Source of the DNA: an uncultured Novosphingobium sp.
Lineage (GTDB): Bacteria; Pseudomonadota; Alphaproteobacteria; Sphingomonadales; Sphingomonadaceae
Direction: 5' to 3'
NCBI GenBank assembly: GCA_937860195.1
Contig: CALMBN010000343.1
Location: forward strand, 1-12,567
Length of the DNA: 12,567 nucleotides
The notes beneath the pieces are model-generated. The model did not search any database, was not told the DNA's origin, and saw only the letters and a list, made by a program, of their open reading frames with translations. This document shows, in pieces, positions 5,519 to 5,596 of the stretch; positions within the stretch are counted from its first letter, which is position 1, and every line of letters starts with the position of its first letter. Position numbers and translations under genes: made by a program.

Positions 5519-5596
5519 ATGTGCAATCGGCCGATCCCGACTATTACCATCAAACCGACCGCGCTTGCGGGAACGGTTGTGGGGTCGCGTCGCTAA
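5519..5596 (+). CDS. Putative Thr/Ile-rich leader peptide of asd
   Basis: A 25-codon ORF (ATG 5519, TAA 5594-5596) lies in the leader of asd. The peptide starts MCNR, then [10 protein letters not shown] (residues 5-14), then [11 protein letters not shown]. Thr or Ile fills 6 of residues 6-14 (I6, T8, I9, T10, I11, T14). A Shine-Dalgarno-like AGGGG at 5506-5510 sits 8 nt before the ATG. The Thr-Ile-Thr-Ile run recalls the thr operon leader peptide of enterobacteria, which measures charged tRNA-Thr and tRNA-Ile. Asd lies on the common branch leading to threonine, isoleucine, methionine and lysine, so such a sensor would be logical here. The ORF runs straight into a set of competing hairpins. 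That it is translated and regulatory is inference from codon content, the ribosome-binding site and the position of the stems. The TACATT at 5484-5489 might be a -10 box, but I see no good -35. Confidence 0.6.

Follow-up and report, generated by a model that had tools for sequence, protein, structure and literature searches.

Does a 25-codon reading frame in front of the gene for aspartate-semialdehyde dehydrogenase (asd) encode a leader peptide that controls this gene? The question is raised by a 12,567-nucleotide contig of an uncultured Novosphingobium sp., taken over its whole length and referred to as the window, for which a first-pass annotation had proposed a Thr/Ile-rich leader peptide before asd. 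Direct reading of the sequence bore out the ORF together with its coordinates (Table 1), and the gene behind it matches the asd profiles TIGR01296 (asd_B; 419 bits, cutoff 324), NF011456 (468 bits), PF01118 and PF02774.

Table 1. Features of the asd upstream region and neighbouring genes in the window
Feature	Coordinates	Strand	Remarks
Upstream gene, NAD+ synthase	3787-5442		Profile match
-35 element TTTACA, presumed promoter	5482..5487	+	Most of 71 aligned rows have a TTTACA/TTGCCA-like box here (about -37..-32)
-10 element TTAGGG, presumed promoter	5504..5509	+	16-nt spacer, 9 nt 5' of the leader ATG; alignment and combined pattern
Leader ORF (very probable), 25 codons	5519..5596	+	ATG at 5519, TAA ending at 5596
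Core control codons (putative) ACT ATT ACC ATC (Thr-Ile-Thr-Ile)	5540..5551	+	Positions -4 to -1, abutting the Lys codon
Segment 1 (AACCGACCGC)	5553..5562	+	Helix 1:2
Segment 2 (GCGGGAACGGTTG)	5567..5579	+	Partner of 1 or 3; comparative pairing and modelled states
Segment 3 (CAACCCGCCCCGC)	5607..5619	+	Partner of 2 or 4
Segment 4 (GCAGGCGGGG)	5625..5634	+	Partner of 3 (terminator-like hairpin) or 5; then weak T run ATTTCC
Segment 5 (CCCCGCACTGCTCTCC)	5657..5672	+	Pairs with 4 via CCCCGC and CTGC, or with the asd Shine-Dalgarno via TGCTCTCC
Segment 6, asd Shine-Dalgarno AGGAG and TAGCA	5679..5688	+	Shine-Dalgarno-like motif in 70/70 rows
asd, 342 aa, proposed regulated gene	5691..6719	+	Profile matches

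The short ORF, its start and its putative control codons

ORFs of 25 codons are frequent in GC-rich DNA, and a lone one is little proof; the case for a leader arises because this one is conserved. Relatives were gathered by scanning named genomes with the Asd protein and keeping the best 80 of 194 loci, 79 of which were testable, L102 with its 2 nt of upstream DNA being skipped in all analyses. A leader was counted where an ORF of 20-31 aa, starting from ATG, had K[PKTQ][TAIVP] inside and at least four Thr/Ile among its first 18 aa, a definition that is post hoc, having been set once the peptides had been viewed. The short ORF with Thr/Ile codons that the first-pass annotation had suggested seeking in relatives is by this definition kept in 70 of 79 upstream regions of this asd clade, including all 28 loci L032-L059, compared with 7 of 3950 dinucleotide shuffles of the same regions and 2 of 4918 other 260-nt windows from the same loci. 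Against these numbers, a chance ORF in an ordinary intergenic region, which the abundance of such frames might otherwise suggest, can hardly be credited, and the comparison argues that 5519-5596 is very probably a leader peptide gene. Example peptides are MSNMPAITITTKPTAPAGPVVGMRS (L032), MSMTIAKPIIIKPTRARGAVSDARAA (L063, record title Sphingomonas), MQLAATKIITRKTTRFGGAAGMRAI (L097, record title Caulobacter) and MTNQMTIKITIKKTRNAGFFGVCA (L103).

Nine loci lack such an ORF (L066, L071, L076, L077, L079, L081, L083, L111 and L089). In L089 the leader region is truncated by the contig end, yet the RNA model R1 gives a hit, while the remaining eight of the 79 have neither ORF nor model hit; in L066, L077 and L083 an apparent coding region reaches nearly to asd. 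The leader accompanies asd despite a differing upstream gene, as judged by eye from 41 printed upstream regions, few of which share the window's; L033, L037 and L050 have the same upstream gene end as the window. In L095 (1775-1837), from a record titled Burkholderiales MAG, MKSHFASTLSIKTTIIAMVG lies before an asd of the same clade, with a AACCCGCC...GGCGGGT hairpin and no R1 hit; this locus is included in the 70 of 79, and horizontal transfer of asd together with its leader is possible.

The motif AGGGG, which the first-pass annotation had placed 8 nt 5' of the ATG, is indeed present (5506-5510), but its reading as a ribosome-binding site fares less well, as TTAGGG, which includes four of its five bases, fits better as a -10 element. 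In the alignment, TTTACA/TTGCCA-like and CTAnnn-like boxes keep a near-constant spacing to the leader ATG. The combined pattern, ending 6-10 nt 5' of this ATG, occurs in 65 of 70 rows versus 48 of 14000 shuffled 60-mers, and in 0 of 70 rows before the asd start; it was defined with the alignment already in view, and L091 was left out of the count. A scan for promoter and terminator consensus sequences gave no match, the promoter emerging from the alignment only. All 70 rows have a Shine-Dalgarno-like motif before asd, but only 13 have one before the leader ORF. AGGGG is thus more likely a piece of a -10 element than a Shine-Dalgarno sequence, and transcription probably starts at or a few nucleotides from the ATG, since a frequent promoter pattern and rare Shine-Dalgarno-like motifs make the leader mRNA look leaderless, or nearly so.

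As expected of an attenuator, codons for end products of the pathway under control are clustered in this ORF. Among 64 distinct peptides (L093 and L095 omitted), Thr or Ile stands at positions -4, -3, -2 and -1 before the Lys in 42, 61, 54 and 35, and the mean number of Thr plus Ile in the six codons before the Lys is 4.1 in frame, as opposed to 0.02 and 0.08 in the other frames. Within the same table Thr and Ile substitute for one another at the control codons, consistent with a sensor of either amino acid. The Lys itself belonged to the search criterion, and its constancy alone is no evidence; a second Lys is found at -5 in 30 of the 64 peptides, and the leader might conceivably sense Lys as well. 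Where Ile occupies position -3 it is encoded by ATT in 50 cases and by ATC in 1 (of 51). Over whole leaders the Ile codons are ATT 100, ATC 62 and ATA 1, compared with ATT 115, ATC 720 and ATA 9 in the asd genes, a marked bias towards ATT over ATC in the leaders.

Alternative helices and the level of output

The ORF overlaps RNA with the mutually exclusive helices 1:2, 2:3 and 3:4, and the control codons abut segment 1, a further arrangement expected of an attenuator. Pairing was assessed in alignment A1, which holds 54 of 69 usable rows after removal of near-duplicates and of L093 and L095. Helices 1:2 and 3:4 together are paired in 89.6% of cells, versus 83.6% in shuffles and no more than 49.0% in slid versions, and contain 46 double-change cells versus 17.6 in shuffles, where cells count sequences and not events. 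Changes on both sides occur in 6 of the 9 pairs of helix 1:2; over both helices 7 pairs have double changes, a number reached by 39 of 500 shuffles. Helix 3:4 is the most invariant, with 97.1% of cells paired, and helix 2:3 the weakest of the three (74.6% of cells versus 73.7% in shuffles and at most 55.6% slid), its register varying among clades. These comparisons show that helix 1:2 is backed by covariation, that 3:4 is conserved, and that the complementarity of 2:3 is conserved as well, if more weakly.

Modelling of the ribosome's position separates the two states. With a stalled ribosome the median P(3:4) over 69 rows is 0.00 and P(4:5) 0.82, and in the released state, with the ribosome at the stop codon, the values are 0.87 and 0.00 (L093 is omitted from this stalling test, and L095 from the duplex and folding tests). 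The ribosome-free window RNA already favours 4:5 (0.95, with an all-row median of 0.03). The earlier proposal of a Thr/Ile leader peptide before asd thus finds strong support both in conservation and in the overlapping alternative helices. The ORF does lie in the 248-bp region that the first-pass annotation had regarded as otherwise unexplained, but the region appears to contain a promoter, the alternative helices and an anti-Shine-Dalgarno segment in addition.

On sequence comparison and modelled RNA states, we consider it highly probable that the leader is a ribosome-mediated attenuator acting in cis, which responds to charged tRNA-Thr and tRNA-Ile and governs asd expression; translation of the leader ORF, stalling, amino-acid specificity and the level of output are what we infer here. 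The promoter near the ORF would yield an almost leaderless mRNA, to judge from the sequence. With an ample supply of Thr and Ile, the ribosome would reach the stop codon and cover segment 2, 3:4 would form, and segment 5 would close over the asd Shine-Dalgarno, keeping asd low. Under shortage of Thr or Ile, the ribosome would be stalled on the Thr/Ile codons and cover segment 1, 2:3 would form, and segment 4, left free, would pair with segment 5, so that asd is expressed. The output would be translational in most sphingomonad and Caulobacter rows and would consist in transcription termination where a U-tract follows 3:4, for instance in L103 and L105.

The pairings of segment 5 were followed in alignments A2 and A3, which together hold 61 of 71 rows, without L049, L052, L054, L073, L078, L093, L095, L101, L103 and L105, some of which are arranged differently or carry a T run. 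In A2, 4:5 is pairable in 95.2% of cells and 5:6 in 79.0%; in A3 the values are 98.6% for 4:5 and 94.6% for 5:6. Slid versions of 4:5 reach no more than 58.4% (A2) and 76.5% (A3), and those of 5:6 no more than 73.7% (A2, from a 3-column slide that pairs nearly as well as the register used) and 48.6% (A3). The pairs were defined from rows L033 and L065, which favours these pairings. Complementarity is conserved for both helices. Because the changes in 4:5 and 5:6 are chiefly one-sided, column shuffles fail to set the helices apart in A3, where the observed pairing is reached by 500 of 500 shuffles for 4:5 and 387 of 500 for 5:6, and the separation in A2 is slight. In a free duplex test against 200 shuffles, 55 of 70 rows place 4:5 among the lowest 10 and 22 of 70 place 5:6 there, the latter helix being modest on its own; the 4:5 duplex of the window beats all 200.

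In 63 of 70 rows the asd Shine-Dalgarno has a predicted pairing probability above 0.8 (median 1.00 versus 0.80 in shuffles), and in the window the prediction reaches 1.00 (mean of 30 shuffles 0.85). Stems of at least 6 pairs on the Shine-Dalgarno are found in 28 of 70 rows, in 12 of 22 further asd leaders and in 1 of 17 loci of the other asd type; by shuffles 11 of the 70 rows stand out, and 8 and 0 in the other two sets. L136 and three of the 20 other-type loci have no Shine-Dalgarno-like motif and gave no result, and the rows added in this test and in the T count below are not all new, as L143 and L144 share leader peptides with L099 and L094. In places the stem partners change together (for example CTTCC/GGAAG and CGTTTCC/GGAAATG, rows L061 and L087). 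As most rows have no U-tract and segment 5 has alternative partners, the arrangement suggests a translational output, and control via the asd Shine-Dalgarno is plausible, the folding supporting it only in part.

The same sensor could instead act in the window through premature transcription termination at 3:4, as in the enteric thr leader, with the anti-Shine-Dalgarno hairpin being incidental. This is a serious alternative, if a somewhat doubtful one. It would account for the invariance of 3:4, and seven T follow this helix in L103 and L105, where transcription termination is the natural reading of the sequence, while some distant asd leaders have T runs as well; moreover, in equilibrium folding, stalling raises the accessibility of the Shine-Dalgarno by >0.2 in just 17 of 69 rows and lowers it in 1. 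Against it, the window has only ATTTCC after 3:4, with 4 T in 8 nt, which is no U-tract by the definition of the terminator scan, and several Caulobacter rows have GGCTCTC at this place. Among 92 asd leaders, the 8 nt after 3:4 contain at least five T in 11, four in 21 and three or fewer in 60. Termination would also leave segment 5 without a role, yet 4:5 is pairable in 95-99% of cells. The idea that 4:5 substitutes for a U-tract was discarded, there being no overall correlation with the T run (rho 0.05, p 0.62, 92 rows; L120, one of 23 added loci, was unparsed).

Two further explanations were considered. A conserved peptide acting in trans, or an arrest peptide for another metabolite with the Thr/Ile bias as a by-product, would be in line with the partial conservation of the C-terminal half of the leader peptide, and there is a report that the trp leader peptide of S. 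meliloti acts on other mRNAs (PMC7298713). However, segments 1 and 2 coincide with the conserved K[P/T]T and its following residues, so that RNA pairing accounts for these; together with the swapping of Thr and Ile at the control codons and the similar Thr-rich leaders at thrS elsewhere, this makes a trans-acting or arrest peptide improbable. A structured RNA such as a riboswitch, over which the ORF lies by chance, would explain the strong conserved helices, but the ORF and its frame are conserved far beyond chance, and we regard it as more improbable still. Known RNA families were rejected as candidates, with no Rfam match in window positions 5300-5800 (E up to 5) or in 10 related loci (gathering scores).

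Related leaders and known systems

In its own genome, an assembly that is 71% complete, the window is the sole match of R1 below E 0.1. The asd gene is not the only one of this genome, as contig C145 carries another asd-type gene that is 52% identical. The probable Thr/Ile switch of this second asd also suggests that the duplicated Asd enzymes serve different branches. Twenty loci of the other asd type (L012-L031) gave no R1 hit at E 0.1. Between asd and a convergent GlnD-like gene, the window also contains a long imperfect inverted repeat (6740-6828; R1 E 0.83), probably a dispersed repeat or a bidirectional terminator.

R1 hits were obtained in 9 of 9 loci L003-L011, which are not independent, several of the genomes being the same as those of A1 rows. 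At E<=1e-3, 21 of 289 genomes of the class were matched at 24 places, of which 17 lie before asd (including the window), 3 before thrS (L130 and L139 by NCBIfam, L140 from the likeness of its first residues alone) and 4 elsewhere; of the 23 places outside the window, 16 are leaders of other asd genes whose peptides are Thr-rich. At E 0.01, 18 of 119 genomes of the family were matched, at 19 places, with 8 before asd (including the window), 1 before thrS (L157, E 0.0099) and 10 elsewhere, and the asd leader is thus patchily distributed within the family. The places away from asd and thrS, L132, L134, L135 and L137 (4 of 24) in the class and L148-L156 and L158 (10 of 19; E 1.5e-4 to 0.0095) in the family, were taken as chance or unrelated hairpins.

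Leaders of distant asd genes (42-47% identical) are mostly rich in Thr and Lys, for example MSKRTQTTTTMTKKTTLRGGLFVMRAA (L121) and MRTEKTGKTTTKTTASAGRFLVLAG (L125), with Ile present too in some, for instance L124 and L147, and Ile-richness seems characteristic of the sphingomonad/Caulobacter lineage. Other Alphaproteobacteria have short Thr-rich ORFs such as MHRVAHLCTTTTTTTRFGGPDGVVMR, again with a hairpin of this kind, before thrS, at about 1477-1563 in L130, L139 and L157, thrS by NCBIfam, and probably L140; no Thr leader was seen before the thrS of the window's own genome. We consider it close to an even question whether all of this amounts to a widespread alphaproteobacterial family of asd attenuators, which would combine a nearly leaderless ORF with a switch of six segments (off, 1:2/3:4/5:6; on, 2:3/4:5) whereby a stalled leader ribosome opens the Shine-Dalgarno of a biosynthetic gene for translation, while relatives use a terminator, and which would sense Thr and Lys in distant asd types and Thr and Ile in sphingomonads and Caulobacter. 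The present data make a comparative case that, in many Alphaproteobacteria, leader peptides control the enzyme at the branch point of the aspartate pathway. With asd, joined in some genomes by thrS, the leader-peptide class gains candidate attenuated genes, and the data offer a natural series in which one sensor is seemingly coupled to different outputs and different amino acids.

The enteric thr leader is a short Thr/Ile-rich ORF with alternative helices upstream of thrABC. The asd leader resembles this attenuator (thrL) in its Thr/Ile-rich ORF, in the alternative helices over the ORF and in serving genes of the aspartate pathway, but differs in taxon and sequence, in the gene controlled, in the (nearly) leaderless ORF, in the weak U-tract and in the anti-Shine-Dalgarno pairing of segment 5. 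With no Rfam match in 5300-5800 and asd as the downstream gene, it is likened to the enteric thr attenuator in its working and stands outside that family. T-boxes sense tRNA directly. For ileS of actinobacteria, Seliverstov et al. 2005 (PMC1262725) describe T-boxes in which a Shine-Dalgarno-sequestering hairpin and an anti-sequestor take the place of a terminator. They share with the asd leader an amino-acid response through Shine-Dalgarno sequestration while having no leader peptide.

The Caulobacter ilvBN attenuator (Schrader et al. 2014, PMC4117421) is likewise an alphaproteobacterial leader CDS that controls a biosynthetic operon, but differs in its tandem Ile and Val codons, its gene and its rho-independent terminator as given in the main text, where the words threonine and semialdehyde are absent. 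The Sinorhizobium trp attenuator rnTrpL/peTrpL also has a leaderless leader ORF that begins at the mRNA 5' end (PMC10117765), but differs by its Trp codons, to go by the name, and by trpE. The first-pass annotation knew of no described leader of this kind for a stand-alone asd gene in a sphingomonad; a search of open-licence full-text literature found nothing beyond one close remark. It concerns SEP5 of S. meliloti (Hadjeras et al. 2023, PMC10117765), an sORF that is translated, contains 6 Thr and 3 Lys codons and lies in the 5'-UTR of a gene described as 'aspartate dehydrogenase'. The authors considered SEP5 possibly a leader peptide and describe it as conserved in Sinorhizobium only. It has Lys in place of the Ile of the window's leader, and the passages on it mention neither RNA structure nor a wider family; the distant Thr/Lys-rich asd leaders resemble its description. 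Among the R1 places elsewhere, L134 (1486-1560) carries the ORF MQSIILTVATIKVTAVGGALGRCA together with a hairpin resembling a terminator, and may be a leader of the branched-chain type.
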